Source of the DNA: Bacteroidia bacterium
GTDB taxonomy: Bacteria; Bacteroidota; Bacteroidia; UKL13-3
NCBI GenBank assembly: GCA_023151275.1
Contig: JAKLJI010000003.1
Coordinates: forward strand, 1-64,000
Direction: 5' to 3'
Length of the DNA: 64,000 nt
In this document: positions 25,501 through 64,000 of the stretch, piece by piece
Numbering within the stretch: position 1 is the stretch's first letter
Layout of the letters: each line of letters begins with the position of its first letter
The notes under the pieces: model-generated
What the model saw: the letters and a program-made list of their open reading frames with translations, nothing else
Database searches by the model: none
What the model was told of the DNA's origin: nothing
Made by a program: the position numbers and the translations under genes

Positions 25501-28500
25501 TAGTTTGCGAAAATGTTGTTTTTCACTAATACTGCTGTAGAACCAGTATTGTAGAAACATGAGTAAGATGTGCTAGTTCCAGTACTGTACATGTTGATGG
25601 TGTTGTTAAACACCTCAGCAGGATAAGAGGTACTTGCCTGATACAAATAGAAACCGTAGTAACCAGGGTAAGAACCACCAGTTTTATTGCTATTGATTAA
25701 GTTATTGTAAACTTTAACAGGAGCACCTGTGGTATTCATTGGATAATAACAGTAGATACCATAGCCACCAAAACCATTCACTTCATTACCAATGATTTCG
25801 TGAGGAATTGACGTGCTGTTGGATTGGTTGTAGTAATAGTAAACTCCGTAGTAACCATAGTTCTGGCCTTGCATGTTTACTTTATTGCGAATGAACTTAA
25901 TAGGACTGTAATTGTAGGCAATGTACATACCCATATAGTTACTGTTGTTCACCACATTACCACGAATCAACAAGCCACGGTTATAAGCGGCATTTGAAGA
26001 ACCGTAATGAACAATGGTATAACCACCACCGGTTACAATATTGGAATCAATTACTGAAGAGTCTGCACCCGTAGCAGCAACACCGGTACCGTTTGCAGTA
26101 GAGGTAAAGTTGATACCATAACCTGTTGTTGATGTACCCGAGGTAATAACTGGAACGTTTACTCTACACTTGATGATCTGAACACCTACTGTTTCATAAG
26201 AACTTCCTGCACCCACGGCAGCAATACCCACAGGAGAACTTGTATTTGTATTCGTTACAGTTAGGTTTCTGATAGTAACATAATTACACTTGTTCATTAA
26301 AACAACTGCACCAGTAATATTGCCCGAAATTGTGCGGCTGGCAGCGTCATTACCTTCAAACGTAACACGATTCGTACTTGAAGCACCAGGAATTGGTCCT
26401 TGAATAACAAGCTGACCTGTATAAGTACCTGGACGGATATCAAAAGTTACCGGACCACCAACACCATTTACTAAAGCTGCGGCAGCTGCAGAAGGAGTAG
26501 CGAAATCCGGATTTACTCCACCCACTGTATAAACACCGTTCAATGGACCCAACAATGTTGTTTTCAAGGTATCATTGGTAGGATCTGAGTCTGCATTGGT
26601 ATTTGGTAAAGACGTGTAAATGGCAATTGCATTGCTGCTTCCCAAATTAATTTGGTCGGAACCTGTAAATACCACTGTATCCAGTTGACAAACAGCTAAG
26701 GTATTGCTTTTGATAACTGTTACAGCAGGATTGGTATTGTGTTTGTAGGAAGCATTGTAGGAAGTAACTGCATTGTTTCCAATGTTTTTCACTTCGAATA
26801 CCAAATCTTGCAAACCAGCAACAATTGGTGAAACCGGGGTAATTAGTTTGGTAACCATCAAATTGTCACCATTTCCACCTGTGAACTGGTCGGAACCAAC
26901 AGTAGGCATAATAGAGAAAGTGTCTCCGTCAATGTCATTTGGAACAAAAGCTCTTAAATCAGTTCCATAACCATTACAACCATCTGTAAGGTGGAAATTT
27001 CCAGGAAGTGGTTGACGAGAAACAAAGGAAGGAGCGTTGTTGTACGAGCTATCACCACCGGCAGTTGCAGAAAGGTAAGTTGAAGGGTTGTAGAACATAC
27101 CTCTATAAAGCAAGTTTGCAGTTGGACCATTGGAGTTGTAATACAAGTTGTAGTTTACGGAGTTTCCAATTGGATTGGTAGCCAAATACATCGGAGTTGT
27201 TGAACCACCATAAGAAGCGAAGATGTTATTCTTTACCTGAACATTGGATGAACCCGTATTGTAGAATGCAGTGTAAGAAGTAGATGTTCCACCACCTTGC
27301 ATTACTGAAGTATTTTGATAGACCTCTGCCGGGCAAGCGGTATTGTAATTGTACAGATAGATACCGTAATAACCAGGGTAAGAACCTCCAAGAGAGCTTA
27401 CTACGGTGTTAGCATAGATTTTTGTAGTTGCACCGTTGGTAATGTTCATTGGGTAATAGCAGTAGATACCATAACCACCAAAGCCAATGATTTTGTTTCG
27501 TGAAATGAGGTGTGAAGTTGTAGTAGTATTTTGCTGATTGTAATAGAAATACAAACCGTAGTAGCCATACTGAAAACCATTCATGTTGAAGGTATTGCCA
27601 GTTACTTCAATAGGGTTGTAGTTGTAAGCAATATAACCACCCATGTAGTTACAATCGTTAACAATATTGCCCCTAACTTTCATGCCTCTGTTAACGTTAT
27701 TTGAAGAACTACCGTAAATGGTAATTGCATATCCACCACCAGTTACAAAGTTTGAGTCAATTTCGATGGAGTCACCAGACATTCCCGAAACACCTGCACC
27801 ATTTGCAGAACCTGTTGCAATAATTCCATAACCAATTGCACTTGTACCGGATTGAGATGGCAGGATAACAATATTTTTGAAAATACTGATTTTGTTTACC
27901 GAACCTACCATTGCAATACCTGCCGGAGTTGATGTACCTACATTTGTAACTGTGAAGTTTTTGAAAGTTAGGTAACGGGTTCCGTTAATAACCACTGTAC
28001 CACCTGTTGCATTACTCGATAAAGTACGGTTTGCCGAACTTACCCCATCAAAAGTGATGGTATTAACCGGAGAAGTTCCAACAATATTTGGGATGATTAT
28101 TTGTCCGGTATAAGTTCCTGGTGCAACTGTAAAAGTAACAGGTCCACAAACACCAGCCACATTCAGAGCGGCGATTGCAGAAGCAAAACTGGTAAAGTTG
28201 TTAGGTCCAGTCCCATTTGGGTCAATTGTAAATGAACCCGAAATTGAAGGTTGCTTAGTTACCGTAGCCGAATCATTCATACGCATGGTATCGGTTTGGC
28301 TATTTGGAGAAGAAGTCCACGCTTTAATTACAGTTGGAGTTGAAGGGAAAGTGTAGCCACTTGCCAAAGTAATCTGGGTCATGTTAGAAGCTGCACCACC
28401 GGCAGTATCCAAAGAAGCAGTAGAAGTAATAGGAGTTTGAGCAACTCCATTTAGTGACCAGTTAACAGTGAAACCAGTTACCTGATTGGCACCAAAGTTC

Positions 28501-44836: not shown

Positions 44837-46180
44837 TTAGTTGGCTCTGAACTCAACCCTTCGGTTTAATTCATTCAAATAAATTTGTCTTGGCTGACTT
44901 CCTTCTGCTCGTGAAGAGAGGCGATTTGATTCAATTCCTTTGCTAATGAGGTAATTCATAACAACCTTAGCCCGGGCTTGAGATAGGCGCATGTTGTGCT
45001 CCATTCCACCTACATCATCCGCCATACCTACAACTTCTACATTTAAAGAACTGTTGTTTTTCAAAATCTTCACTACCCTATCCAAAGTTTGTTTGCTTTT
45101 CGTAGTTAGTGCACTGGAATTGTTCTCAAAATAAACAGGATTCATCTCTAAACGAATGATATCCAAAGAAGCTGCGTTACCCGAACCACTTGAAACAACA
45201 GGTGTTTGAGTTGGCTGCACTGCACCCTTATCCCCTGGCTTCTCCGGACATCCGGAAGGTGTATTGGCAGCTACATCAGGGCAATGGTCTTTAATATCAG
45301 GAACTCCATCCTTGTCGCTGTCTTTGGTGAACTTTTCCTGGATAAGTGCAATTTCCTGTTGGGTAGTGTTTAATCTTCCACGCTCGTAACCCAAACTATC
45401 TTGCAAAGCCTTAAGGACAGCATCATAATCTTTGGCTTCAGTACCAGCCTGCCAGGCCAGACCCCTGTCTTGGTGGCTGTTTTTTCCAAATGTATAGCGC
45501 AAAGCAAAGGTAGATTTAAGCAGGTTTTCCCTTCCCGAGCCATAATTGTACCCATCCACTGCATCGGAATGAATAACTGTGTATTCCGATTGCAGCATCA
45601 AATGCCAATTGTGGTTTAGGTGATAACGCATTCCAAGGCCCAAGCCGGTTACCATAGAAGCACCGCTTTCTGTATGGAACAAGCCATCATCAACCACAAA
45701 ATAACGCTTTGAATCATACCCGGCTCTACCAAATGAGGCACGCACATAAGGGACCCAATTGTAAGGTTTTGTGCGGTAACGGGTTTTCAAATCCAAATTT
45801 ACACCGGCCTGCAAAAAGTTTATATCGGCTTTGTAATAGTCGATTTTGTTTGCCCCCGTTATGTTTCCGCGATCATAGTTCAAATCAACTGAAATAACCG
45901 ATGACCAAAAATAGGTAAGGTCCAATCCATAAGCCAGATCAAACTTGGTTTTGCTTCCGTTGAAACCATAAAGGTCTTCTCCGGCAAATCCATTGTTGAG
46001 CAAATCGTAGGAGGTTACTTTTAAATCGTATAAATTGGTTAGCCTTAGGCCAACAGCCCAGCGATTCATCGCCGGTCTGTTGGTTTGAGCCATTGTTGCT
46101 GTATTGAACAGCAGTATTCCCGCAGCCATCGCTACTAATGTGCGACAATGGGATTGAATTGCTGAATGTATTCGTTTCAT
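44837..46180 (-). CDS. OmpA-family outer-membrane protein (N-terminal beta-barrel, TSP3-type linker, C-terminal OmpA domain)
   Basis: DKDGVPDIKDHCPDVAANTPSGCP; VEVVGMADDVGGMEHNMRLSQARAKVVMNYLISKGIESNRLSSRAEGSQP. Confidence 0.88.
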   Translation of the reverse strand: MKRIHSAIQSHCRTLVAMAAGILLFNTATMAQTNRPAMNRWAVGLRLTNLYDLKVTSYDLLNNGFAGEDLYGFNGSKTKFDLAYGLDLTYFWSSVISVDLNYDRGNITGANKIDYYKADINFLQAGVNLDLKTRYRTKPYNWVPYVRASFGRAGYDSKRYFVVDDGLFHTESGASMVTGLGLGMRYHLNHNWHLMLQSEYTVIHSDAVDGYNYGSGRENLLKSTFALRYTFGKNSHQDRGLAWQAGTEAKDYDAVLKALQDSLGYERGRLNTTQQEIALIQEKFTKDSDKDGVPDIKDHCPDVAANTPSGCPEKPGDKGAVQPTQTPVVSSGSGNAASLDIIRLEMNPVYFENNSSALTTKSKQTLDRVVKILKNNSSLNVEVVGMADDVGGMEHNMRLSQARAKVVMNYLISKGIESNRLSSRAEGSQPRQIYLNELNRRVEFRAN

Positions 46181-46192
46181 GATTCTTAGCTT

Positions 46193-49100
46193 TTACTTGG
46201 CAATAATTACTGGCTTAATTGCTTTCTCATCACCTGATTTGATATGCACAAAGTAGGTTCCAGGGCTCCAGTCGCCAGTTTCAACACTGTGACTGAACGC
46301 GCTTTCTTGAGCAGAATAAACCAATCGGCCAACTCCGTCAAATACCTGAACCTCAAAACCTTCATTGCCTCGCAGGTTGTTTACATCTACACGGAAACGT
46401 TCCTGAGTTGGGTTCGGGAATAGATTGAAGCTTAATCCGTCTTCCAAACTTCCAATACCCAAGGCTACACCTACTCCAACCGGATCACTTTCAGTTGTGC
46501 ATCCTTGAACAGTTCCAACACGAACACTGTAAATACCGGTTTTGGTCATGGTGTATGCGCGTTGATTAGCTCCAGGAATGTCTTCGTAATTGCGTCTCCA
46601 CTGGTAGAAGTCAAACGACTGTGTTACCTGCAATACATCTGAATTCATACGTTCAATCATTGGCTTATCCGGCGAGCGGTGAACAGTTACAAAGAAATTC
46701 GCCTTTGTTTCACAACCCATTGAATCGGTAAAGGTGCATACCACGGCATGGTTGCCAGGTCCCGATAATCCCGGATCAAATTGCTTACCATCCAGACTAA
46801 CTCCACTTCCGCTAAATACCACATTTGCATTTCCACGGGTTAAATCAAATGGAGGATTGCTGCTACAAACGGTAATGTTCGGGAATGTATCTGGCAAATA
46901 AGGAGGCAAAATGGTTACAGTAAAGCTGCGGGTAACCAAATTACCTGAACGATCTGTAAAGGTGAAGGTATTGGTGGTTACGCCTACCGGATACTTCTTG
47001 CCATTGCCAATGCCCGTTGTTTGTTTTATGGTTACTTGCGAGCAGTTATCGGTGGCAGTTGGAATACTAAACTGGAAGTCGGTATTGCAATGACCTAAAA
47101 TCACACTCTCAGGGAAACTAGTTACAACAGGCATCATGGTATCAAGAACAGTTACAGTTACCCAGGATGAACTGCGATTTCCGCTGATATCCTGAATGAA
47201 GTATTCAACCAAATTGGTTCCTGTTTCGTTGCAATTGAAAATGGTTTTACTCAATGCACTAAAGCTAACTCCAACATTATCAGTTGAACCATTGTCAACC
47301 TCAGCAGGACTTAAGAACACAAATCCACCGTTTCCTAAATGCAAGGTCAGATTCTTAGCTCTAATACGCGGACGAACGGTATCAATTACATTCACTGAGA
47401 TATTAGCTGTACGAACATTGTTGCTACCATCTGTTGCTGTAAAAATTACCTGATTCATTCCTAAGTTCAGTCCATTGAAGCTGGTCTTACTCAGGCTAAA
47501 GCTTAGAGCTGAGCAATTGTCAAAGCTGCTTAAGTTTACCTGGTCGGTGCTCAGCGATGCCTGACCATTGCTATCGAGGTACAACATCACCATTGGATTT
47601 ACCAATAAGCTTGGACGAATGGTATCAAGTACTGTCACGGTGAAACTTGCTGTTGAAGCATTGTTGCTACCATCGTTTACAGTAAGTACCACTGCATTTG
47701 GACCTAAATCAGCACAACCAAACTCCGATTTGCTCAAGGCAAGGCTTGCGGTTGAACAATTGTCGCTAGAGCCGTTGTTGGCTTGGGCAGGAGTGATACT
47801 TGCCGTTCCAGCCGAGTTAAGGTATACGGTCAGATTACGTGCAGAAGCAGTTGGTTTGATGGTATCCAATACGGTAATCGTAACCAATGCACTCATTTGA
47901 TTCGCACTAGCATCTTCCAAGGTGTACAATACCTGGTTTGCACCCAGGTTATTGCAATTGAAGCTGGTTTTGCTCAACTGCTGAAGGGTAATTCCCACAT
48001 TATCACTTGAGCCGTTATTTACCATCGCAGGTGTTAAGGTTGCAGTTCCTGACCCATCTAAGTAAATGGTTCTGTTTTGCACACTAACCACAGGACGTAT
48101 TGTATCAACCACCGTGATATTGAGGATTACTGAATTTGTATTTCCACTCGCATCTGCAATGGTATAGTTCACCAGATTCAAACCTAAGTTAGTGCCATTA
48201 AAGCTAGTTTTGCTTAGCGTTTGCGAGGTGATACCACAATTGTCGGTAGAACCGTTTCCAACCATTGCATTGGTAAGCGTAGCTATACCTGCATTGTTTA
48301 AGTACAGGGTCAAGTTATTGTTAACAACCACATTCGGACGAATGGTATCGAGAACGGTTACCTGCAAACTTCCGCTAGAGCTGTTGTTGCTCGCATCAGT
48401 CACCTGTAACTGAATCGTGTTATTTCCTCTATCGGCACAGGTAAACAAGGTCTTACTCAGGTTTAGGTTTGAAACACCACAATTATCGCTTGAACCGTTA
48501 TTGGCTTGAGCAGGAGTTAATGTAGCCTGACCAATTCCATTCAGGTATAAAGTAATGTTTTGAGTATTTACAATTGGCTTGATCGTATCTACAACTGTTA
48601 CAGTTGCAGTTCCGGTTTGGCTGTTGTTACTACCATCTATTACGGTCAACACCACCTGATTATTACCTAAATCACTACATGTAAATAAGGTCTTCGACAA
48701 TTGAACTGCAGAAATGCTCACATTATCGGTAGAGCCATTGTTGATTTGAGAGGCAGCAATGGTTGCAACACCCGAAGCATTTAGATAAATGGTTCTGTTT
48801 TGGGTAGTAACGATCGGTTTAATGGTATCCAAAACGGTAATCAACACCTGTGTTTGAGCGCTGTTGCTGCTTTGGTCGGTTACAGTTAATGTAACAAGGT
48901 TAGCACCCAAATCAGCGGCAGTAAAGTTGGTTTTACTGATGCTAAGGCTTTGAACCGAACAGTTGTCTGTTGAGCCATTGTTTACCTGAGCTGCAGTAAT
49001 AGATGCCGTTCCTGATGCATTTAGGTAAATGGTTCTGTTTTGACCAATGGCAGTTGGCTTAATGGTATCCAGAACAGTAACACTTGCGCTAGCCGTTCTG

Positions 49101-52100
49101 AAATTACCACTGGCATCGGTCAAAGTTACACTTACGGTATTGCCTCCCAAGTTGCTGCAATTGAAGTTGTTCTTGCTTAATCCTGCAAGAGGAGCAGCAC
49201 TGCAATTGTCGGTTCCACTCAGAATAACATCCGAAGGATTCAATACTGCATTACCACTTCCGTCAACATAAAGGGTAGCAGAACGGGTGTTTAACACTGG
49301 ACGTATGGTATCCAAAACCGTTAAACTAAACTGAGCTGAACCAATATTTCCGGTGCTATCTGTTCCGGTAAGGGTTAAAGTATTCACACCTAAATCAGCA
49401 CATCCAAACTGAGTTTTGCTCAAGGTTCTGGTAGCCAGATTGCAATTATCGCTGCTCGCACTATCCACGGCACTTAAACTCAAATTAGCAGTACCCAAAG
49501 CATTGAGGTAAACGAGTACATTTTTCTTCGGACGCATTACCGGGCGAATGGTATCAAACACATTGATTACAACAGGTGCGGTTTTGAAATTTCCATTCAC
49601 ATCGGTAACTGTAAAGTTGATGGTGCTTGTACCCAAATCGCTGCATGTAAATGTTGATTTGGAAATGCTTACCGATTGAATACCACAGTTGTCGGTACTG
49701 TTGTTGTTTACCATTGCCGCTGTAATGGTAGCAGTACCGGCATTATTCAAGTAAACCAATTGGTTTGAAACAGTAGCAACCGGAGCAATCGTATCAATTA
49801 CAGTTACCTGAACGATAGCAGCATGCGAATTTCCGCTCTGATCCTGAACGGTGAAGGTTACGTTATTTGTTCCAATGTTTGAGCAGTTAAATACAGATTG
49901 ACTCAATACCCGACTGGTTAAAGTACAATTGTCTGAACTGGCTGAATCCAGCAATGCCGGGTTGATAACAGCCTGTCCATTACCTGATAAGTACAGGTTC
50001 AAACGCGCCTTAGGACGAGCAACAGGAGCAACAGGGTCTAAAACAACCACATTACTTACACCACTTGCACTATTTCCATTCACATCGGTTACGGTTAAAG
50101 TAACAGGTGTAATGCCTAGGTGCGCGCAGTTGATTGTAGTTGGCGATATGGTAACACTTGCAATTCCGCAATTATCTGTAGAACCATTATTTATCATGGA
50201 GCTGGCAACAGAAGCAGTGCCATTTGCATTCAAATAAAGAACAAGGCCACTTTGTACATTAACGGTTGGTTTTATGGTATCAAGTACGGTAACTGTTGCA
50301 GTTCCGGTCTGAACATTTCCATTCACATCCGTAACGGTTAGTGTAACTGTATTTGGACCCACATTAGAGCAGGTAAAGCTTGTGGTATTTAAACTTACAG
50401 AAGCAATTCCACAGGCATCAGAAGACCCATTGTTGATTTGTGAAGCAGTAAGGCTTGCATTTCCTGAGGCATTGAGATACACCGTCCTATTCTGAGTAAT
50501 TACGACAGGCTTTACAGTATCCATAACCAGGACTGTAAAGTTAGCAGAATCTTTATTGCCAGCCAGGTCGGTAACTAGTAAGCGAACTGTGTTTGATCCC
50601 AAATTTGCACAGGTAAAGCTGCTTGTTGAAAGCGCTCTGCTCTGAATACCACAATTATCAGCACTTGCACTATCGGCTTGAGCAGCCGTGATACTCGCAT
50701 TGCCGGAGGCATTGAGGTAAACAGTAAGATTACGAGCCACCACCACAGGACGAATGGTATCGCCAACGGTTATTTTTATTGCCGCACTGGTATCAGAATG
50801 TGCACCAGATACCACATAGCGTCTGAACCAAGTAGTTTGGGTTAATGCAGGTGAAGTATAATTCACTGTATTGCTAGAAGGAATTGCAGTAAATCCATTT
50901 ACAGCATTGGTAGTTGACTTCAACCAAGTATATGTAAAGGTTTCGTTTCCTCCCGTTGGCGTGCTACCTGTTAATTGGGCAGGAGCAGTACCTGAACAAA
51001 TGGTTTGTGCACTACCGATGGTATTGTTTCCAATTGGCAATGAGCCCGGTGTAACTGTTAAGGCAATAGGAACCACAGCACTTACACAACCAGTAGAAGT
51101 ATTGCGTACAGTAAAATTAAAGTTATAGGTATTGGCTGCACTGGCAGGAATACTAACACTAATTGGACTAGTACCTAAACTAGCATTGCTAACCAGGGTA
51201 AAGCCAGGCATAGCTGTTGGAGAACCTGTTGCAATGCTATACTGAGTTGGAGTTCCAGTTGTGGCAGAATAAGGAATGCTGAAACTGGTAGCTAAGGTAT
51301 TTACGCTGCTAATGGTGCCCAGTGTTATTGTTGGTATTGGATTCACTGTAATTCCTTTTGCAGCAGAGGTGTCCGCCGCACATTGGCCTGAACTCACAAT
51401 CCTTCTAAACCAGGTTGTTTGGCTTAACACAGGTGGAAAGTAACTCTTGGCATTAGCACCTGAAATAGCTGTAAATCCCGCACTTGCCGAGGTAGTAGAT
51501 TTCAACCACTGGTAAGAATAGGTAGTTCCATCTCCCCCACTTGGAGTAGAGCCGTCCATATCCGGAGTAAAATCACCTAAACAAACGGCATTGGCAATTG
51601 GATTGGCAATGGTATTGTTTGAAATAGGATTGGTTACCGTAATTAAAACAGCTGCACTTGTATCGCTAACACTACCGCTTACTACAAACCTTCTAAACCA
51701 GGTGTTCTGAGTTAAAGCAGGAGGATTGTAATTAATGTTGGAATTGGTGCCGGTGGCAGAAGTAAATCCAGTTGTTGCGCTGGTTGTAGAGCGCAACCAA
51801 GTATAGGTAAAGTTGCCTGTGCCGCCTGTTGGTGTGCTACCTGATAATGCTGCCGGAGTTGAACCTGAACAAATGGTTTGTGCAGTAGAAATGGTATTGT
51901 TTAAAATTCCACCTGGTGCATTTACTGTTAATGTAAATGGCACATTTGCACTTACACAACCTGTTGTGCTATTTCGAACAGTAAGGTTGAAATTGTAGGT
52001 ATTTGCAGCACTAGCAGGTATAGTAATGCCGATTGGACTTGACCCTAAACTTGCATTGCTCACCGCTGTAAATCCAGACATGGCTGTTGGAGATCCTGCG

Positions 52101-55100
52101 GTAACACTGTACTGATTTGGTGTTCCAGTTGTTGCAGAATAAGGCAGGCTAAAGGATGTGGCATTGGTTAGTACACTGCTCACCGAACCTAGCGTAATTG
52201 TAGGCAATGCATTTACGGTACCAGATACAGGCACATTTTGAGTGGTAGCTCCTGTTGAACCTAAAGCAATATTACCAGAAGGAGTTCCGGTGGCAACTGA
52301 GCTCATACGGATATAAACTGTTGCAGCTGCCACTGTACCAGATGTAGGTGTAATGTTAAGCGTTGATGAAAATCCAGAGCCGGAAGTTAATGATACCTCA
52401 TAACCAGCAGGAGGGGTAACAGAAATATTCGAAGTTAAACTAGAGCCGCTAACAGTAAAACTCTGCTGACCTGATGCAGTACCAGAACAAGCAGTAAAGC
52501 TTGTCAAGGAAGCACTTGCAGAAATATTTGGACTACCAGTGATACTTACTGTTATTGCAGAAGAAGTATCAACACCACAACTACTTCCGCTCACCACTCT
52601 TCTAAAGTAAGTTGTTTGAGTCAAAGCAGGAGACGAATAGTTTGCGGTATTATTTACCCCGGAAGCAGCTACAAAACCAGAACTTGCAGAAGTAGTTGAA
52701 GAAATCCATTTATAACTCAACGTACCTCCACCACCAGTTGCTGCAGTTCCTGTAAACTGTGTAGGAACACTGCCAGAAGAAATAGACTGGTTACCTGTAA
52801 TTTGGTTATTCGCAATTACTGGGTAATAATTTGCTACCAATGGAGTTGAGGTAGCAGTAGGTGAAGAAACACAAGAACCGCTTGAAGTTAAAACACAAAC
52901 AATAGTATCTAAATTGGATGAGTTCGATTTTACATAGGTTGCACTATTGGAACCAACATTCACTCCATTCAATTTCCATTGGTAAGCGGGAGTGGATCCT
53001 CCATTTGTGGAAGTTGCTGTATAAGTAATTGATGAACCTGGACAAGCAGTACTTGGACTTGCAGTAACTGTAATTGCTGGTGTTAATCCTGAAGTAACAA
53101 CCACCGTTCCAGTATCACTAGAACAACCATAAGTTCCATTATTAAAATCCGTAACCCGAATCAAGTATGTTCCTGGATTTAATATTGGAATTGTTGGTGA
53201 AAAATTACTTCCATTCACACTGTAATGCGGCGTATTTGGCACATTGCTGTAATTAACAGTAATAGCAGTGGAGCCGCAGGCGTTTGCCTTAGTTATTGAA
53301 TTCAGGACAGCTCTAACAGGAATATTAATTACAATATCACCAGATATGGTTTGGTTTCCGCATTTATCCTTTACAGCTATGCGGTATGTACCACTATTGG
53401 TTACAGTAAATATACTATTGGTAGAAAAGCTCGAAAAAGTTGAACAATTTGCTCCGGAACACAGTGCATAGGTATAAGGTCCCCCATTTCCACCAGCACC
53501 AAAACCAGCAATTTTTGCAAAGCCACCGCAATCTATGGCAGAGGTAGTGGTTATGGTTGGGTTTTGAGTTGTTACCGAAACAACTACATTGCTTGAGTTG
53601 GCAATTGTGCCGCAAGAATCAAGAGCTCTTACCGTGTACGTTCCAGCTGCTAATCCAGAAAACACATTGTTTAACTGAGGGCCAGCAACTACGGCAGAGG
53701 TTGCATTATTAATTAATGAATATCGAATTGGCGCAATTCCTCCTTGAGAAGAGGCAGTAACCGTTCCAGATCCACCAGATCCACAAGTAACGCTTGCCAC
53801 GCCTGCTGCAGTGAGTGCTGGAGGTATTGAACTTACTACCACTGCTGGCGAATTTGAGGTAGCATTGCAATTATCGGTTATACGAATTAAATAAGAACCT
53901 GCAGGTAAATTACCAAAATAAGGATGCGATTGATTCGGTCTAACAACAGCACTATTTGAGGAATTTAAAAGTGCATATTGAAAAGTTCCTCCAGCTTGAG
54001 TAGTACCAGTGGTAATTGTTGTTAAAATCGAACCTGTGGCACTGCCAGAACAAGAAGGAGTGGGAGTTCCTGTTACAGATGGAACTACAGATGCAGGAAA
54101 AGCCAGGGGTGTTGCTGTTGTCGAGGTTTTTCCACAAGCATCTGTAATACGCAATAAATACCCACTTGCGTTTACGGGAACACTATCAAATAAGGTTGAA
54201 TATTGAGGCCCAATAACAACCGATGAATTGGTGCTGTTAATTAAACTATACTGATAGGGCAGTCTACCTCCGGGAGGGACAGTAGCAACCCGAATGGATC
54301 CATTAGCTTTACTAGCACATGAAGAGGAAACAATGGCTAGTGATCCAACATCAGGACCAGTTGAATTCAACGAAATATTAACAGTTGCCGTGTTGTTGCA
54401 AACATCAGTAACTCTAACCACATGTGTTGGCGAACCAGTTAAATGAGGAACAGCTGGAAAAACATTAGTACTTTGCGCAGGAAATATTACTGTGGTATTG
54501 GTTGAGTTATAAATAGCATACGTGTAAGGACCACCACCGCTTCCTGATGGAATTGGACCATAACCATTAAAACTTTGCGGCACAACTGTTACTTGTGATA
54601 AATAAGTACTGGCGCTACATCCTACTATCGCGGTACTAGCAGATGCTGAAAATGGCAGTGCAGCTGCGATGGTTGTCTGCGCATCTACAGTTAATCCGCA
54701 CTGATCTTTGGTCTGAACCGTATAAGTTCCAACTGGCAAACCAGTAAATACAGGATTATTTTGAAAAGCCCTTGTAACAGGAGATGGCGAAACCAAAGCA
54801 AACTGATAAGGAGCACCTCCTCCTGAATTGGCTGTCAAGCTAATAACAATAGATCCGGTTGAACTTGTAGAACAACTTGAACTATTGGTTATTGTTGGAG
54901 CAGTTGGAGCAGTTGCAGCAGCCAACGTGAAAGGACTTGAATTTGTTACGGTATTACCACAAGCATCTGTAATTCGAATGGTATAATCACCAACTGGTAA
55001 GTTACTGAAAATTCTGCTCGTTTGAGCAGGCCTAATTTCTGGAGAAGGTGCAATTAACTCAAAAGTATAAGGAGCAATACCTGTAGTTGGTGCTTGAACT

Positions 55101-57364
55101 GCTAACCAACCGGTTGCAGAAGTGCTGCACGATGGAAGTGTTGTAACACCTGATGGAAATGAAAAATTAGTTGAGCCAGGAACCGAAATGGTATCGGTAA
55201 CATCTACTCCACAAGCATCCGTCATTTTAACAGTGTACTTGCCAATGTTTAAATCTGCAAACCTGGCATTTACGGAGTTTGCAATATTGCTATACTGGGT
55301 TGGTCGTATTGCGGCTCCCGGGCTAATTAACTCAAACTGAAATGGAGAAAGTGCAGAAGAATTGGGTTGTATCAAAATCGACCCATTTCCTTGCGATACG
55401 CATGAAGCTGAACTAGAAGCAGTAAATGTTGGTGCATTTGCTGCACGCACCGAAACGGTATCCACTTTGCTAATTCCGCATCCGTCCGTTAATCGAATAG
55501 TGTAATTCCCGGGAACCAAGCTGTCGAAAAAGTTGCTTGCTTGAGCTGGTCTTACTAATGGTGAAGGTGGCAATAACTCAAACAAATATGGACCTCCACC
55601 GCCTGTTGAAGTTACCTGAGTTTTTAGTGAACCTGTTCCTGAGTTTGGGCAGGAAGCAATAGCGAAAGTTGAACCAAAACTTGGTGCACTTGCAGCACTA
55701 ACAGTTGCCGTTGCAGTGCTTATGCTACCACAAGTATCCCTTATTGCATAGGTATATGTACCTGGATAAAGATTTTCAAAAACATTGCTACTTTGAAAAC
55801 CTCTAATCTCAGGGGATGGTGAAATTAAAGCTACCTGTAAAGAACCGAATGCAGCGCCATTATTAATGCCATTCAAAGAAAGTCTTACCGCAATTTTACC
55901 AGTAGGTTTATCCGAACAAGAAGCGGTAGTTGTTGCGCCTATTGAAGGTGAACTTGAAACAGGAACCGTAAATACACCTTGTGTAGTCCTATTACAAGCA
56001 TCTGTGACTAAGAAAGAATACTGCCCAGGAGGTAGGTTTGAAAATTTTGCATAGTAAGAAGTAGATACCACATTGTATAACTCCGCATTGACATTCGAAA
56101 CCAAAATAGGTGATGGACTAACGAGGCTGCATGAAAAAGGTGGCACACCATTCGAAACGGTAAGCAATGCTTCTCCTGTTGAACCACCAGCACATGATGG
56201 AATAATAGTTGTTCCTGAAACAGAAACGGATGGTGTTGTTGATATGGCCTCACTAGGAACTGTTGCTGAAATAACAACACTAATACCACAATTATCCCAA
56301 ACCTTTACTGAATAAACACCGGCAGGTAAATTTGAAAAAATATTACTGGTTTGAATAGTTCGGGTAACTGGAGAAGGACTAATCAACTCATATCGATAAG
56401 GAGGAACCCCGCCACTTACCGCTGCTGTAGAATGTCCGGTAGGATTAATTCTAATGCTTCCATTTGCACTTCCCAAACAACTAGGCATGATTTGAAATCC
56501 AGCTATATTTAAAGCCAGTGCACTCGGATTATAAACCACCCGTTTTACTATACTTGTTTTACATCCATTGTTATCAGTAACCGTGAGCTTTACAAAATAA
56601 GTGCCATTTGAAACAAATTCTTTTCTTGGATCTTTTTGTGTAGATGTTGTACCATCACCAAAGTCCCATAAGTAACTACTAATACCAGCGGCTGCAAAAG
56701 AAGAATCATAGAAGCGAAAAACACCCGAACAGCTTGAATCTGCATCAACTCCAAAATTTGGCCTATTATCAAAAATTGCGGGTGTTGAATTTATTGAATT
56801 GCTCTCAGGATTATTTGTAAACTGAACTGAAAATTTAAGTGGTGTGGAATTACTAAACTGGTCAACCAAAAGAATATACCATTGTCCCATTACTACATCG
56901 ATTCCAGGATTAAATGCACCAATACCTGTGTTTGGAGTAGATAGCCCAGTTGCACCTGGAATACCATAAGATGTAGAAGAACCGGCATAACTACAAGACA
57001 TATCAATTTTTTGATTACAGCTGTTTGTTCCCGGAGGACCATTTAATTTGAATATACTCCAGTCAAAATCTGAGTTAGTGGGCAAGCCACTTGGATTGTA
57101 TAATCGAATTACAAAATTGAGCTTTCCGCTTGCCTTTGCCTGAAAAGCAAGCCAAACGGAATTGTGTTCAACATTTCCGCAGGCAAGCTGCTCCAAATTA
57201 GAACCCAATCCATTCGGGAAATAAGAATCCGTGTTACCGCAAATAATAATAGGATTTGAACAATCAGATTGAGCATTCACTTGAAGTCCTATTCCAATGA
57301 ATGCAAAAATCAAGACCCAAGGTAGCATCAACCTTTTCCTGACTTTTTGTATAAATGTTTCCAT
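46193..57364 (-). CDS. giant multi-repeat secreted surface protein (PKD, SprB-like, Ig-like, HYR-like repeats; T9SS type A sorting domain)
   Basis: Start METFIQKVRKRLMLPWVLIFAFIGIGLQVNAQ; PKD YLWDFGDGTTSTQKDP; many tandem repeats; C-term FNLFPNPTQERFRVDVNNLRGNEGFEVQVFDGVGRLVYS...GTYFVHIKSGDEKAIKPVIIAK. Confidence 0.85.
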   Translation of the reverse strand: METFIQKVRKRLMLPWVLIFAFIGIGLQVNAQSDCSNPIIICGNTDSYFPNGLGSNLEQLACGNVEHNSVWLAFQAKASGKLNFVIRLYNPSGLPTNSDFDWSIFKLNGPPGTNSCNQKIDMSCSYAGSSTSYGIPGATGLSTPNTGIGAFNPGIDVVMGQWYILLVDQFSNSTPLKFSVQFTNNPESNSINSTPAIFDNRPNFGVDADSSCSGVFRFYDSSFAAAGISSYLWDFGDGTTSTQKDPRKEFVSNGTYFVKLTVTDNNGCKTSIVKRVVYNPSALALNIAGFQIMPSCLGSANGSIRINPTGHSTAAVSGGVPPYRYELISPSPVTRTIQTSNIFSNLPAGVYSVKVWDNCGISVVISATVPSEAISTTPSVSVSGTTIIPSCAGGSTGEALLTVSNGVPPFSCSLVSPSPILVSNVNAELYNVVSTSYYAKFSNLPPGQYSFLVTDACNRTTQGVFTVPVSSSPSIGATTTASCSDKPTGKIAVRLSLNGINNGAAFGSLQVALISPSPEIRGFQSSNVFENLYPGTYTYAIRDTCGSISTATATVSAASAPSFGSTFAIASCPNSGTGSLKTQVTSTGGGGPYLFELLPPSPLVRPAQASNFFDSLVPGNYTIRLTDGCGISKVDTVSVRAANAPTFTASSSASCVSQGNGSILIQPNSSALSPFQFELISPGAAIRPTQYSNIANSVNARFADLNIGKYTVKMTDACGVDVTDTISVPGSTNFSFPSGVTTLPSCSTSATGWLAVQAPTTGIAPYTFELIAPSPEIRPAQTSRIFSNLPVGDYTIRITDACGNTVTNSSPFTLAAATAPTAPTITNSSSCSTSSTGSIVISLTANSGGGAPYQFALVSPSPVTRAFQNNPVFTGLPVGTYTVQTKDQCGLTVDAQTTIAAALPFSASASTAIVGCSASTYLSQVTVVPQSFNGYGPIPSGSGGGPYTYAIYNSTNTTVIFPAQSTNVFPAVPHLTGSPTHVVRVTDVCNNTATVNISLNSTGPDVGSLAIVSSSCASKANGSIRVATVPPGGRLPYQYSLINSTNSSVVIGPQYSTLFDSVPVNASGYLLRITDACGKTSTTATPLAFPASVVPSVTGTPTPSCSGSATGSILTTITTGTTQAGGTFQYALLNSSNSAVVRPNQSHPYFGNLPAGSYLIRITDNCNATSNSPAVVVSSIPPALTAAGVASVTCGSGGSGTVTASSQGGIAPIRYSLINNATSAVVAGPQLNNVFSGLAAGTYTVRALDSCGTIANSSNVVVSVTTQNPTITTTSAIDCGGFAKIAGFGAGGNGGPYTYALCSGANCSTFSSFSTNSIFTVTNSGTYRIAVKDKCGNQTISGDIVINIPVRAVLNSITKANACGSTAITVNYSNVPNTPHYSVNGSNFSPTIPILNPGTYLIRVTDFNNGTYGCSSDTGTVVVTSGLTPAITVTASPSTACPGSSITYTATSTNGGSTPAYQWKLNGVNVGSNSATYVKSNSSNLDTIVCVLTSSGSCVSSPTATSTPLVANYYPVIANNQITGNQSISSGSVPTQFTGTAATGGGGTLSYKWISSTTSASSGFVAASGVNNTANYSSPALTQTTYFRRVVSGSSCGVDTSSAITVSITGSPNISASASLTSFTACSGTASGQQSFTVSGSSLTSNISVTPPAGYEVSLTSGSGFSSTLNITPTSGTVAAATVYIRMSSVATGTPSGNIALGSTGATTQNVPVSGTVNALPTITLGSVSSVLTNATSFSLPYSATTGTPNQYSVTAGSPTAMSGFTAVSNASLGSSPIGITIPASAANTYNFNLTVRNSTTGCVSANVPFTLTVNAPGGILNNTISTAQTICSGSTPAALSGSTPTGGTGNFTYTWLRSTTSATTGFTSATGTNSNINYNPPALTQNTWFRRFVVSGSVSDTSAAVLITVTNPISNNTIANPIANAVCLGDFTPDMDGSTPSGGDGTTYSYQWLKSTTSASAGFTAISGANAKSYFPPVLSQTTWFRRIVSSGQCAADTSAAKGITVNPIPTITLGTISSVNTLATSFSIPYSATTGTPTQYSIATGSPTAMPGFTLVSNASLGTSPISVSIPASAANTYNFNFTVRNTSTGCVSAVVPIALTVTPGSLPIGNNTIGSAQTICSGTAPAQLTGSTPTGGNETFTYTWLKSTTNAVNGFTAIPSSNTVNYTSPALTQTTWFRRYVVSGAHSDTSAAIKITVGDTIRPVVVARNLTVYLNASGNASITAAQADSASADNCGIQSRALSTSSFTCANLGSNTVRLLVTDLAGNKDSANFTVLVMDTVKPVVITQNRTVYLNASGNASLTASQINNGSSDACGIASVSLNTTSFTCSNVGPNTVTLTVTDVNGNVQTGTATVTVLDTIKPTVNVQSGLVLYLNANGTASVASSMINNGSTDNCGIASVTISPTTINCAHLGITPVTLTVTDVNGNSASGVSNVVVLDPVAPVARPKARLNLYLSGNGQAVINPALLDSASSDNCTLTSRVLSQSVFNCSNIGTNNVTFTVQDQSGNSHAAIVQVTVIDTIAPVATVSNQLVYLNNAGTATITAAMVNNNSTDNCGIQSVSISKSTFTCSDLGTSTINFTVTDVNGNFKTAPVVINVFDTIRPVMRPKKNVLVYLNALGTANLSLSAVDSASSDNCNLATRTLSKTQFGCADLGVNTLTLTGTDSTGNIGSAQFSLTVLDTIRPVLNTRSATLYVDGSGNAVLNPSDVILSGTDNCSAAPLAGLSKNNFNCSNLGGNTVSVTLTDASGNFRTASASVTVLDTIKPTAIGQNRTIYLNASGTASITAAQVNNGSTDNCSVQSLSISKTNFTAADLGANLVTLTVTDQSSNSAQTQVLITVLDTIKPIVTTQNRTIYLNASGVATIAASQINNGSTDNVSISAVQLSKTLFTCSDLGNNQVVLTVIDGSNNSQTGTATVTVVDTIKPIVNTQNITLYLNGIGQATLTPAQANNGSSDNCGVSNLNLSKTLFTCADRGNNTIQLQVTDASNNSSSGSLQVTVLDTIRPNVVVNNNLTLYLNNAGIATLTNAMVGNGSTDNCGITSQTLSKTSFNGTNLGLNLVNYTIADASGNTNSVILNITVVDTIRPVVSVQNRTIYLDGSGTATLTPAMVNNGSSDNVGITLQQLSKTSFNCNNLGANQVLYTLEDASANQMSALVTITVLDTIKPTASARNLTVYLNSAGTASITPAQANNGSSDNCSTASLALSKSEFGCADLGPNAVVLTVNDGSNNASTASFTVTVLDTIRPSLLVNPMVMLYLDSNGQASLSTDQVNLSSFDNCSALSFSLSKTSFNGLNLGMNQVIFTATDGSNNVRTANISVNVIDTVRPRIRAKNLTLHLGNGGFVFLSPAEVDNGSTDNVGVSFSALSKTIFNCNETGTNLVEYFIQDISGNRSSSWVTVTVLDTMMPVVTSFPESVILGHCNTDFQFSIPTATDNCSQVTIKQTTGIGNGKKYPVGVTTNTFTFTDRSGNLVTRSFTVTILPPYLPDTFPNITVCSSNPPFDLTRGNANVVFSGSGVSLDGKQFDPGLSGPGNHAVVCTFTDSMGCETKANFFVTVHRSPDKPMIERMNSDVLQVTQSFDFYQWRRNYEDIPGANQRAYTMTKTGIYSVRVGTVQGCTTESDPVGVGVALGIGSLEDGLSFNLFPNPTQERFRVDVNNLRGNEGFEVQVFDGVGRLVYSAQESAFSHSVETGDWSPGTYFVHIKSGDEKAIKPVIIAK
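47144..50761 (-). repeat. 15 tandem ~80-aa HYR/cadherin-like repeats (consensus DTIxPxxxxxNxTxYLNxxGxAxxxxxxxNNGSxDNCxxxxxxLSKTxFxCxxLGxNxVxLTVTDxxxNxxxxxxxVTVL)
   Basis: DTI(R/K)P starts at about 240-bp spacing; followed by a divergent canonical HYR domain (DTMMPVV...). Confidence 0.9.
53090..56510 (-). repeat. about 12-13 tandem SprB-like repeats, each bracketed by SC... and ...TDxCG
   Basis: Recurring SxSC(x)nGS ... ISPSPxxRPxQxSNxFxxLPxGxYTxRxTDxCG. Confidence 0.85.
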
Positions 57365-57395
57365 AGATAAAAAGATTTCTTTCTTAAAATGCACC

Positions 57396-57812
57396 CTAAA
57401 TAATGGCATAAATGCCAACAAGACGTGTAAATCCTTCGCTACAATTAAAGCCATCTTTCGTTACACGGTCGGTTCCCTTGACCACAAAAGGTGTGTCTTG
57501 TGCTGTAATGGTAATGGTTCTTTCGGATGCACTGTTTGGTCGAATAGTTAACCGATGCGGAGATGCAAACTGATTGAGGTTATTTGCACCTGTTTCGGTA
57601 ATGTTACCAATTACCGTAGCTGTAACGCTCTGGTTCATACCCGAACTGTTAATGGCTGCAAACAAACCACCGGTATTGGTAAAGGAGGTGTAGGTTCCGC
57701 CCGGCCCAACGGTGACATTAGCTGCCACCTGGCCATACAGGCGCCCGCTCATTCCCGCCAAAAGCAGGAGTAGAAAGACGAGATAACTGGATTTTTGAAG
57801 TAAAGGTTTCAT
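57396..57812 (-). pseudogene. truncated N-terminal fragment of a large beta-helix surface protein, or short secreted protein
   Basis: MKPLLQKSSYLVFLLLLLAGMSGRLYGQVAANVTVGPGGTYTSFTNTGGLFAAINSSGMNQSVTATVIGNITETGANNLNQF...DRVTKDGFN then abrupt stop; looks like only the first strands of a pectate-lyase-like helix. Confidence 0.5.
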
Positions 57813-58429
57813 ATTATTTTGATGTTTGTAGTGAGCTAGTTTGAACTGCGTTCTGAATAGAAAGCAGTGAGGCAACAGAATACCGATTCTTTAAATTATA
57901 AGCAGAGCATGAAGCAATTTCGCTTGAATAAAAACAACCAGTGAATGCTAAATATTTTGTTTTGGGAGTTGAAAAAAAATCAACCCAAAAGAGGCCAGAA
58001 AAAGCTGGAACTATACTTTTAAGGAAATCAAATTGAATTAATTTCTGCGCCCAAAAGCGAATTGCACAAGCCTGATGAAGGAGGTAGCAAGCCTGCTGTT
58101 TTACCTTAAAAAAAGTGTTTAAAATTGGCATAGGCTATCAAATATTACAGCTTAATTTCAACGAATTGGCTATAAAATTAAATCCCTTTTATAGTGTTGC
58201 CAAGCCCTAACCCATAAATCAGGGATAACCCTTAGAGCCTAATAAACAAGAAAATACCACTTCTTTCAGTCCCCAAAAATGCTGCCCTTAACCTGCAAAT
58301 TGGCGCAAAATGTCAATCTATAAATTGACTTGAAGGTTATAATAAAAAATTATCTAGTAGCAAAAAAAGCATTTAGCGAATCAGGCTTTTGGGGGAATGA
58401 ACAATGGTATAGCTCTGAAATATTTTACC

Positions 58430-58910
58430 TTGAAGAAATGAAGGGAATGAAGGTTAGTGAAGGTTAAATTTTAAAAGGTCGAAATCAGATTTGGGGAAAT
58501 TTACCATGAAGGCATTAAGAGTATGAAGGTTAGTGAAGGCCATAATTTAATTGGTCTGTTATCGGAGTTGGGGAAATTTACCATGAAGGCATGAAGAGTA
58601 TGAAGGTTAATGAAGGCCATAATTTAATTGGTCTGTTATCGGAGTTGGGGAATTTTACCATGAAGGAATGAAGAGTATGAAGGTTAGTGAAGCCATATTT
58701 CAATTGATCTGAGATTGGGGATGTGGAAATTTACCATGAAGGAATGAAGGGTATGAAGGTTAATGAAGGCCATAATTTTATTGGTCTGTTATCGGAGTTG
58801 GGGAATTTTACCATGAAGGAATGAAGAGTATGAAGGTTAATGAAGGCCATATTTCAATTGATCTGAGATTGGGGATGTGGAAATTTACCATGAAGGCATG
58901 AAGGGTTTTT
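58430..58910. repeat. 77-bp tandem repeat array, about 6 units in two subtypes
   Basis: Unit starts (ATGAAGG) at 58506, 58583, 58660, 58736, 58813, 58890; degenerate first unit about 58430. Confidence 0.95.
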
Positions 58911-60726: not shown

Positions 60727-63700
60727 TTAGTGTTTGATAATTTTGGTAGTAGAAACAAGACCTGATTCATCTTCAACATGGAGCAGGTAAACACCCGCTG
60801 AAAGCGCATCCAGATTCAAAAGTAATTCTGAGCCATTCATGGATTCGCTGCTGAGTTTGCGGCCATTCAAATCATAAACCATAACAGATGCTTGTTTCAA
60901 ATTTTTGCTACTGCGGATTTGAAGTTGAGCGCTAAATGGATTTGGAAACACTACGAGTCCCAACTCGTTGGCAAGAACTTCAGCAGCACTTAATGGTACA
61001 GCATGGTAGGTTTTTTGGTAACAATTGCCGCTAGTAGAAATTACCCAATACGCTTTGGTTGTAGTTTCAGGAGAAGCATTGTAATAGTTTTGGTTGATTT
61101 CATTCTGAATGGTATTTCCTTTCAGGGTAGGTAACTCGTCAAAACCCCATTGGTATTTTTGAACATTGTTGGCTTCGCAAACAAAGTTTTTGTTGAAGTA
61201 ACGCACAGTTGCTGTATGAACAGACTCTGCATTTACTTGCAGGTTAACACTTGTGGAAGAAGAGCACCCGTTTTGAGTGGCTGTTAAGTTAACCACAGCA
61301 GCACCTGAATTCGGGAAGCTAATCAAGCTGTATTGCTTGGTGCTTCCTTGCGCATACAGGCTGGCATTGCTGGCCGACCATTGGTAGCTAACACCTGAGG
61401 CAGGAGCTGTTGCCGCGCCGAAGTTTAAGTATTGTGCACCTTTGCAAATTGGGCTTGCAGGCTGAATGCTGATTACAGGTTGGGCTGGGGCTGGATTGCT
61501 TGTTCCATTTACGGAAACACTACGCAAAGTTGCATCCTGTGAGTTAATTTCCAGATTGGTTCCTAAAGTTCCTGTTGCGGTGGCGCTGATACGGATAAAC
61601 AAAGTTGTTTCGTTAACAGAACCAGCAGTAGGATTAAGCACCAGGCTAGCAGCAAATCCAGCACCGGAAGTGGTTGACACTTCAAATCCTAAAGGAGCAG
61701 TAACGGTGATACCTCCAACCAGATTAGCTCCGCTCACCTTAAACGATTGTTCCTCTGAGGTTGAACCGGCGCAGGTGGTAAATGGAGTGAATGAAGAGGA
61801 TACTGTAAGAATTGGCCCTACAATTTCAAGTGTAGTAAAGGAACTATCTCCGCCATAACTGGTATCAATGCTGCTAATGGCATAAGCCTTATAGTGGTAG
61901 GTAGTTGCAGGGATTAAACCGGAAATAGTTTTATTATATCCACCTTTACCCGAGCCAACGGCCACCTTTGTAGCAGTAGCAAGTGTTGGATTGCTGGCAG
62001 TACCGTAAACAAATCCACGATCAGTTACATTAGCAGAACCAGTATCCAGCACATTTCCAGCCAATAAAACTGAGGTGGCTGTAATTAAGCTTGGCGGATT
62101 GGTTCTAACAACTGGAGGCAAGTTAGTAGGAAGATCAAGCGTTCTAAAGGTTGAATCGCCACCATAACCAACACCGGAATTGTTGTAGGCATAATACCGA
62201 ACATGGTATAAAGTTGATGGGGTAAGACCAGTAACATTCATTGCAACTACCGAGCTATTCATAAACACAACTTTCCGGTCGCTAACGGTTGGGTTAGGAC
62301 TCGTGCTCAAAACCACACCACGTTCTGTAACTGCTGAGGAGCCGGTATCTATAATCGCACCACCTAATGTAGCACGATAATAACCAATATCAAATGGAGA
62401 AGAAGTTCTCACCAATGGAACAGTTAGAGAAGGACTTGCCGTTACAAATGTGCTATCGGAGCCATAACTTGTGCCCACGCTGTTGATAGCATAGGCGCGC
62501 ACATGGTAGGTAGTAGAATGCGTAAAGCCTGAAACGGGTAGTGAAAAGCTACCAATACCTGAACCCATAGAAACTTTGGTATTGGCTATGGTTGGATTTG
62601 CAGTTGTGGCATAAACTATGCCTCTTTCGGTTACTGCAGAAGAGCCACTATCACTTACGATGCCTCCTAAGGTTGCATATGTAAGTCCAATCAGCTTTAC
62701 TTGAGCAGTACTTACCGTTGGAGCAGAACTTGGAGGAAGGGAACCGGTGGTAAATGTGCTATCGGCGCCATAGCTAGTGCCAACGCTATTGGTGGCAAAG
62801 GCTCTGAAATGGTATGTAGTGGCTGGCGTAAAATTGCTAACCACTTGCGAAAAGCTGCCTTTACCAGAACCCATAGCCACTTTTGTACCATTACTAATAG
62901 TTGGATTTGCAGAAGTGCCATAAACCACACCACGTTCTGTAACGCTAGCTCCACCATCGGAGCTTACATTTCCGCCCAAATTTGCTGTTGTAATGGTGAT
63001 TGATGTTGCACTTGAAGTACTTACAGTTGATAAACTTGGACCACCAATTAGGGTAGTTAAATTCTTGGGATTTTGAACTGCGGGAGCGCGGTTGTAGCCA
63101 ATATCAGCACCGGTACCGCCATACTCACATACCATTAAACGGTAATTGGTTCCCTGAGTTAGACCAGTAATACTCACTGTCATTCCTGTTCCATTGTACA
63201 CACAATACCAACCGCTGTTTCCAATTTGTGAACCTGAACCAAAATTGGGGTTTGCGGTATACGTGGTTCCATTTACAGGCATTGCCCAGGATCCAGTATC
63301 CGCCTTTAGGAATGCGGCACGCGCAGTTCCATTTCCTTTGGTCCAAGAAGCGGTAACTGAATTAGCAGTTAGGCCCAAAAAACTGATGTTTTTAGACTGA
63401 AGGGTTGAAGTAGAACCAAATGTAATATCAAAAATATTGCTGATGTTTTTCAGTGTATCGCTTATTGAAAATGGTGACAATGTACCCATAAAAACACCCA
63501 TTCTACCCGGACTACTGCTACTGTTTGAATAGGCTACTTTATTATTAACCGGGTCAATATCAAACGCAATAAAACTGCCCTGGGAGCTTGGAAGTTTAAA
63601 TAAGGTATCCCGCTGTGAACCATCAAAATTACTACGGTAAATTCCCAAGTTATCCGAGAAATAAAGCTTGTTATTTATTAAATCCGCCCGAACACCCCAA

Positions 63701-64000
63701 GTTGAGGTTGCACCTTTCATAATGGTATCCCTATTACCTGTTCCATCAGCATTCATCCCAAATACAAATTGATTTTGTGTGGTATAAAACACTTTTCCCA
63801 AAGCGGGGTTAATTGCGATTTGACGGCCGGCAATTTTTCCTAAAATAACGACCATATTAGAGCCGTCCAAATTGCAGGATGCATAACCACCAGTACCAAT
63901 AATATAAAGTTTTCCTGCATATTCATCAATGGCAATTCCGCGGGGATTAATTGCCTTGGAAGGCGTATTGAAGGTATCTATAATTTGAACATTGGTTCCA
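60727..64000 (-). CDS. giant secreted surface protein, 5' end beyond window (YWTD/LDLR-B-like propeller, FN3-like repeats, T9SS type A sorting domain)
   Basis: Frame stays open upstream of the ORF-track start to 64000 (GTNVQIIDTFNTPSKAINPRGIAIDEYAGKLYIIGTGGYASCNLDGSNMVV...); repeated ATLGGxVxDxGSSAVTERGxVYxTxxNPT; C-term VVFPNPFSAQLQIRSSKNLKQASVMVYDLNGRKL. Confidence 0.85.
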   Translation of the reverse strand, partial: GTNVQIIDTFNTPSKAINPRGIAIDEYAGKLYIIGTGGYASCNLDGSNMVVILGKIAGRQIAINPALGKVFYTTQNQFVFGMNADGTGNRDTIMKGATSTWGVRADLINNKLYFSDNLGIYRSNFDGSQRDTLFKLPSSQGSFIAFDIDPVNNKVAYSNSSSSPGRMGVFMGTLSPFSISDTLKNISNIFDITFGSTSTLQSKNISFLGLTANSVTASWTKGNGTARAAFLKADTGSWAMPVNGTTYTANPNFGSGSQIGNSGWYCVYNGTGMTVSITGLTQGTNYRLMVCEYGGTGADIGYNRAPAVQNPKNLTTLIGGPSLSTVSTSSATSITITTANLGGNVSSDGGASVTERGVVYGTSANPTISNGTKVAMGSGKGSFSQVVSNFTPATTYHFRAFATNSVGTSYGADSTFTTGSLPPSSAPTVSTAQVKLIGLTYATLGGIVSDSGSSAVTERGIVYATTANPTIANTKVSMGSGIGSFSLPVSGFTHSTTYHVRAYAINSVGTSYGSDSTFVTASPSLTVPLVRTSSPFDIGYYRATLGGAIIDTGSSAVTERGVVLSTSPNPTVSDRKVVFMNSSVVAMNVTGLTPSTLYHVRYYAYNNSGVGYGGDSTFRTLDLPTNLPPVVRTNPPSLITATSVLLAGNVLDTGSANVTDRGFVYGTASNPTLATATKVAVGSGKGGYNKTISGLIPATTYHYKAYAISSIDTSYGGDSSFTTLEIVGPILTVSSSFTPFTTCAGSTSEEQSFKVSGANLVGGITVTAPLGFEVSTTSGAGFAASLVLNPTAGSVNETTLFIRISATATGTLGTNLEINSQDATLRSVSVNGTSNPAPAQPVISIQPASPICKGAQYLNFGAATAPASGVSYQWSASNASLYAQGSTKQYSLISFPNSGAAVVNLTATQNGCSSSTSVNLQVNAESVHTATVRYFNKNFVCEANNVQKYQWGFDELPTLKGNTIQNEINQNYYNASPETTTKAYWVISTSGNCYQKTYHAVPLSAAEVLANELGLVVFPNPFSAQLQIRSSKNLKQASVMVYDLNGRKLSSESMNGSELLLNLDALSAGVYLLHVEDESGLVSTTKIIKH
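61830..63045 (-). repeat. four tandem FN3-like repeats (about 95-100 aa)
   Basis: VTERG(V/I)VYGTxANPT...GxGSFxxxVSxxxPxTTYHxRAYAxNSVGTSYGxDSTFxT repeated four times. Confidence 0.85.

Follow-up and report, generated by a model that had tools for sequence, protein, structure and literature searches.

The 64,000-nucleotide stretch of DNA analyzed here (hereafter the window; positions 1 to 64,000 of the forward strand of contig JAKLJI010000003.1, from the Bacteroidia bacterium assembly GCA_023151275.1) contains an open reading frame on the minus strand (46193–57454) that encodes a giant surface protein of 3753 amino acids. According to the list of open reading frames and a Pfam scan, the protein contains PKD, SprB-like, and Ig-like domains, 15 repeats resembling the HYR domain, one HYR domain, and a C-terminal sorting domain of the type IX secretion system (T9SS). 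The sorting domain is of type A (residues 3678–3751; Por_Secre_tail, 56.8 bits), and SprA is encoded in the same genome (SprA_N, 546 bits); on these two grounds, the giant protein is predicted to be a T9SS-exported surface protein. This study concerns the cysteines of its HYR-like repeats.

Cysteine pattern of the HYR-like repeats

Repeat borders were set by splitting the sequence at the DT.xP motif, which gave 15 repeats of 80 or 81 residues (residues 2232–3437), followed by a true HYR domain that ends the array (residues 3438–3522; 46889–47143, on the minus strand like all of the repeats) and carries C3456 and C3471. No other HYR-like array of this type is present in the window genome. The repeats have two cysteine positions, C1 in a DNC motif and C2 in an FxC motif 14 to 15 residues further on. 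Both cysteines are present (CC) in repeats 1 to 6 (49313–50761), 7 (49070–49312), 10 (48350–48589), and 13 (47627–47866). Repeats 8 (48830–49069), 11 (48107–48349), and 14 (47384–47626) keep only C1 (C-), with C2 replaced by Ala at residue 2846 and by Gly at residues 3087 and 3328, respectively. Repeats 9 (48590–48829), 12 (47867–48106), and 15 (47144–47383) keep only C2 (-C), and the lost C1 is Val in all three (residues 2912, 3153, and 3394; codons GTG, GTG, and GTT). An earlier note on this DNA had described the arrangement [CC][C-][-C] × 3 for repeats 7 to 15 (47144–49312), and we found exactly this pattern at exactly these coordinates; its statement that each C-/-C pair supplies two cysteines is also correct as a count. 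If three losses of each kind are distributed randomly over 15 repeats, the probability is 0.0018 that each missing C1 comes immediately after a missing C2, and the offset together with the period of three arises with P = 3.9e-5; the recurrence of the pattern in approximately 20 related arrays supports it much more strongly than this chance calculation.

Pairing of C2 with C1 of the following repeat

Searches recovered related arrays from 63 of 147 relatives and, across the phylum, from 40 of 396 genomes. Approximately 77 loci were retrieved, and every repeat was scored at both cysteine columns. A scan of genome contigs yielded two loci, one of which lay on a contig equal in length to that carrying the array of G018, was taken to be the same, and was left out. 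Arrays of true HYR domains (Cs Cs Cs and Cv Cl), which blurred the statistics for the phylum, were set aside by their motif. In the related arrays, C2 of one repeat, C2(n), and C1 of the next, C1(n+1), were both present at 533 junctions and both absent at 70; C1(n+1) alone was missing at none and C2(n) alone at 2, and 70 of the 72 junctions without C2 therefore also lacked the next C1. Within single repeats, both cysteines were present in 499 cases, C2 alone was missing in 72 and C1 alone in 75, and not one repeat had lost both. The other genomes of the phylum gave 111 junctions with both cysteines, 1 with neither, and 0 with only one of them. Kinship inflates these co-loss counts; the independent losses number four that are well supported and up to eight in total, and essentially all of them are co-losses.

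The ends of the arrays were informative outside the family of the window array, where C1 was absent from 9 of 34 first repeats versus 1 of 112 later ones (p = 7e-6), and C2 from 8 of 32 last repeats versus 1 of 112 earlier ones (p = 2e-5). Some arrays of only two repeats (vC Cf, gC Cf, and sC Ca) keep just the two cysteines of their single junction. Direct coupling analysis (DCA) was then applied to 773 pairs of neighboring repeats, and 12,246 column pairs were ranked. The pair C2(n)–C1(n+1), columns C51 of repeat n and C37 of repeat n+1, ranked third with a z score of 16, and the positive control T9–A73, an intradomain pair of the four-cysteine variants, stood at the top of the ranking with a z score of 18. 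The C2(n)–C1(n+1) coupling came mainly from the family of the window array; among other arrays, in which these cysteines are rarely lost, it was weaker (z = 3.5). In the subset composed of CC/CC pairs only, which has no cysteine variation, the best junction couplings between different columns (the 9/73 pair set aside) were L54–S67′, Y15–I3′, and L54–D35′, in which the prime denotes repeat n+1. All three recur outside the family; L54 lies three residues beyond C2, and S67′ and D35′ adjoin C1′. Columns 9 and 73 themselves hold an extra cysteine pair in approximately 30% of the repeats, in many of the relatives (r = 0.96), which joins the first and last strands and is absent from the window array.

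An AlphaFold 2 model of two repeats had a pLDDT of 98.2 and a pTM of 0.84, and its strand order agrees with the proposed topology. Sequence searches for a solved structure gave weak matches only. The closest solved folds to this model in Foldseek were Rib2R and the cadherin-like pair of Staphylococcus aureus SraP (TMq 0.51–0.64), and the similarity to SraP CDHL-1/2 (4m03 and 4m00, TMq 0.60–0.64) marks the predicted fold as a cadherin-like β-sandwich. From the strand order of the models, C1 is located at the N-terminal end of the domain and C2 at the opposite, C-terminal end; the two would be separated by a strand of approximately 11 residues, some 30 Å, and C1(n) and C2(n+1) would lie about two domain lengths apart, the most distant pair of all. 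In SraP, N691, which by our positional matching is the equivalent of N36′, contacts the preceding domain at residues matching Y15/L16 (PMC4047093), and Y15–N36′ is also coupled in the repeats (z = 3.4). Together, the couplings from cysteine-invariant pairs and the SraP crystal structure place C1 where the domain adjoins the one before it. The geometry is drawn from the strand order of the models, DCA, and the crystal structure paper of a homolog.

The same junction probably holds a metal ion. D1 (92–99%), D35 (97%), and D65 (98%) are near-invariant and mutually coupled, and positions D1, 3, D35, N36, and D65 of the repeats correspond to the SraP Ca2+ ligands D573, K575, D601, N602, and D645 (PMC4047093), so that the repeats display the D, D-N, D ligand pattern of SraP-type junctions. 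It is therefore likely that every junction binds Ca2+. The ligands are retained where the cysteines are lost.

These four lines of evidence, namely, co-loss, array ends, DCA, and the cysteine-free geometry, point to a bond between C2(n) and C1(n+1), which we infer to be a disulfide. We consider it probable that standard repeats are joined by this disulfide (hereafter the staple), that a C-/-C pair marks a junction without a staple, and that a unit of three repeats has been multiplied and kept in phase. The earlier note had wired the cysteines the other way, with a C1–C2 bond inside each CC repeat and a special extra bond C1(n)–C2(n+1) in each C-/-C pair, an idea for which the count of just two cysteines per pair speaks. 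An inter-repeat disulfide in all likelihood exists, as the note supposed, but the wiring it gave is probably inverted. An intra-repeat disulfide was rejected on the absence of double losses within repeats and on DCA (z = −0.5), and a C1(n)–C2(n+1) bond on its z score of 2.1 (rank 352). Furthermore, C1 and C2 are at opposite ends of the modeled domain, and the pairs of that scheme would consequently be far apart; because C1(n) and C2(n+1) would be the most distant pair, the C-/-C arrangement reads as a missing bond instead of an additional one. We regard the scheme of the note as very improbable.

With C2(n)–C1(n+1) pairing, the window array would have 11 stapled junctions. Six successive ones would link repeats 1 to 7 (C2282–C2348, C2362–C2429, C2443–C2510, C2524–C2590, C2604–C2671, and C2685–C2751), and the others would be C2766–C2832 (repeats 7/8), C2926–C2992 (9/10), C3006–C3073 (10/11), C3167–C3233 (12/13), and C3247–C3314 (13/14). 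Junctions 8/9, 11/12, and 14/15 would be unstapled, leaving 94 unbridged residues from C2832 to C2926, another 94 from C3073 to C3167, and a third such stretch from C3314 to C3408. The latter cysteine, C2 of repeat 15, has no partner within the array and no sure partner elsewhere.

Several observations weigh against this assignment. The supported independent co-losses are few and all in the same direction, and a sign test alone is not significant. The two junctions that lack C2 and retain the next C1 are exceptions (L044 repeats 2/3 and L078 repeats 5/6). Within the family of the window array, first repeats mostly retain C1, and last repeats retain C2 in 36 of 36 cases with no clear partner; in the window array itself, the scheme leaves unpaired C2268, the C1 of the first repeat, and one of the three cysteines C3408, C3456, and C3471. 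A seven-repeat model has the same confidence across unstapled as across stapled junctions, and hence predicts no floppy hinge. Finally, DsbA, Thioredoxin_4, DsbB, and VKOR had no match in the window genome.

Some of these points would also suit a different chemistry, in which C2(n) and C1(n+1) form a metal or cofactor site or cross-link neighboring molecules instead of making an intrachain disulfide. Covariation alone is equally compatible with it, the known disulfide-forming enzymes were not found, and the final repeat has a conserved C2 that lacks a partner. However, the couplings obtained without cysteine variation put both positions at the same intrachain junction, no conserved metal ligand was seen beyond the Ca2+ set, and disulfides have been reported in exported proteins of Bacteroidota (PMC12635249). 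We therefore consider this alternative improbable. The three-cysteine cluster C3408/C3456/C3471 at the array end recurs in related arrays and could serve an intermolecular link. DsbB and VKOR were found in 0 of 45 good genomes of the family of the window genome, and exported proteins carry paired cysteines although recognizable DsbB or VKOR was not found in this family. If the staples are real, the question arises as to how a family without recognizable DsbB or VKOR oxidizes dozens of them per molecule.

The period of three and its origin

In the family of the window array, approximately 20 arrays from four genera end in ...CC C- -C CC C- -C, usually with the HYR domain next. Of 47 spacings between successive C-/-C pairs in this family, 43 are three repeats, and the array usually finishes with such a pair. 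The number of units per array is approximately 2 to 6, several arrays being broken by contig ends. No period was seen among arrays outside the family. When the cysteine columns were removed, the C- and -C repeats still grouped by type, with 9 and 7 type changes versus approximately 60 after shuffling, and the nearest relatives of window repeats 8, 9, 10, and 11 were repeats of the same types in other genera. Because the types cluster across genomes and the window repeats match the same types elsewhere, the period of three is an old one: it arose from an ancestral three-repeat unit that was duplicated and conserved. Growth of the array by three-repeat units, which the earlier note had raised, was thereby borne out; in the two checks it had suggested, the 8/11/14-type and 9/12/15-type repeats grouped by type across genomes, and the homologs kept the phase instead of showing random, phase-free loss. 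A recent amplification confined to the window genome was ruled out, since the repeat types match by position across genera and the lag-3 identity in repeats 7 to 15 (50.3%) is hardly above that of other lags.

Three-repeat units are duplicated in relatives, for example as near-identical neighbors in L053 and L058. This duplication and the clustering of repeat types by descent are what would be expected if the period were a mere relic of unit duplication, with the missing staple neutral and of no mechanical role. Against such a relic, the phase, the terminal position, and the replacing residues are kept across genera. At unstapled junctions, C2 is replaced by Gly (66%), Ala (19%), or Ser (11%), 96% in total, and C1 by Val (90%); the staple was never regained, and drift alone is not expected to hold the phase for so long. 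The neutral relic is a serious candidate, to which we give slightly less than an even chance.

Comparison with known stalks and a possible mechanical role

The stiffness of giant adhesin stalks is generally attributed to Ca2+ or to intradomain isopeptide bonds. SraP CDHL-1/2 is the closest fold together with Rib, although the profile similarity is weak (E = 1.6e-4), and the two systems have in common the Ca2+ ligand pattern, the junction contact, and a rod-like stem. By contrast, SraP is a Gram-positive serine-rich repeat protein with only two such modules, and its paper does not mention a disulfide (PMC4047093). The extender domains of RTX adhesins (MpIBP, SiiE, MhLap, and AhLap; PMC7493085) likewise form long tandem β-sandwich stalks stiffened at their junctions, and 6xi1 was among the structural matches, but their stiffening is by Ca2+ only, their paper mentions neither disulfide nor cysteine (PMC7493085), and they use type I secretion; the Pfam scan of the giant protein found no RTX family, only the T9SS tail. 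The top Foldseek match of the seven-repeat model was the grappling hook protein GhpA of Aureispira (9fly and 9flp), also a giant surface protein of Bacteroidota, but with a TMq of just 0.30 and an identity of 13 to 15%, and it was missed by the sequence profile. Disulfides tether neighboring repeats in the Sel1-like repeats of HcpC (PMC3851747), which are helical.

The HYR (PF02494) and HYR_4C (PF23237) families share the length and the DNC motif of the repeats, and a true HYR domain follows repeat 15. Six of the 15 repeats were tested singly against PF02494 and scored 13.7 to 20.1 bits or gave no match, below the cut-off of 21.7, whereas the control, repeat 16, scored 39.4 bits. In the canonical four-cysteine HYR domain, which lacks FxC, the DNC cysteine pairs within the domain with a cysteine near column 22; repeats 1 to 15 hold C1 and C2 only and so lack this partner. 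An alternative partner of C1 was seen only in true HYR domains, namely, Cys 22, which is anticorrelated with C2 (r = −0.43). Judging from these sequences, C1 appears to have been rewired to the preceding domain. If so, annotation of these HYR-like repeats in Bacteroidota should not include a C1–C2 bond within the domain.

An interdomain disulfide is present in an animal receptor as well, at the single junction D1–D2 of Siglec. We know of no case of periodically omitted inter-repeat disulfides, and we found no inter-repeat disulfide in bacterial β-sandwich stalks in the searchable literature, which is not all of the literature. Ca2+ stiffening and disulfide tethering are each known separately; that literature yielded no β-sandwich stalk in which almost all junctions are stapled and the missing staples follow a conserved period.

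The array is suggestive of a rigid stalk interrupted at regular intervals by joints able to give way. In the structure we propose, the repeats would be cadherin-like/HYR-like β-sandwich domains of a T9SS-exported surface stalk, with the C-terminal C2 of domain n bonded to the N-terminal C1 of domain n+1, next to a Ca2+ site made of D1, D35/N36, and D65 of domain n+1. At a [C-][-C] pair, the staple would have been lost as a unit, with Cys changed to Gly, Ala, or Ser and to Val and the Ca2+ ligands left in place; the ancestral unit with one such junction would then have multiplied with its phase kept across at least four genera. By the logic of T9SS, the unstapled block at the C-terminal end of the array would be proximal to the cell. 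Force in a stapled run would be carried only by the disulfides and, in each repeat, by the 14 residues between its two cysteines, and because the other 66 residues would be bypassed, unfolding of stapled domains would add little length. Each unstapled junction would offer 94 unbridged residues, approximately 34 nm when fully extended at 0.36 nm per residue, and the block near the cell surface would resemble a row of regularly spaced extensible or shock-absorbing elements.

We propose this role, that of a stiff rod able to extend at one junction in three, tentatively, at somewhat less than even odds. Its fuller version, a covalently locked rod with a cell-proximal block unlocked at every third junction, in which the number of units sets the stretch distance and the steps, is a possibility on which we would place roughly one chance in three. 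It predicts that stapled arrays are nearly inextensible when oxidized, and that each unit supplies one 94-residue element. If it holds, stapling of almost all junctions combined with a conserved, periodically placed gap would be a second means of adjusting stalk mechanics, legible from the sequence alone. The unstapled junctions could instead be true flexible hinges at which the stalk bends near the cell, and their restriction to the C-terminal part of the array would fit. However, the Ca2+ ligands are kept there and model confidence is not lower, and the "YSLVG" pairs of some relatives, which have lost the ligands too, are better candidates; hinges are therefore unlikely. These pairs (L051 repeats 3–4, L059 repeats 5–6, L062, L068, L077, and L078) lack the staple and the Ca2+ ligands D35 and D65, and in several arrays they occupy the N-terminal end or its vicinity.

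A gene for an OmpA/outer-membrane β-barrel protein (44837–46180, minus strand) lies 12 bp downstream of the giant gene. Such a gene adjoins the array in 19 related loci (34–46% identity); it is a probable partner gene, and its product may act as an anchor or partner of the giant protein. A tandem DNA repeat of 77 bp, which can also be read as 153 bp, is present in six copies upstream of the giant gene (58424–58906). The window also encodes two further proteins of the giant or T9SS type, one of at least 1090 amino acids with FN3 and Por_Secre_tail (60727–63999) and one of 2232 amino acids with β-helix and weak F5/8 matches (22524–29222).

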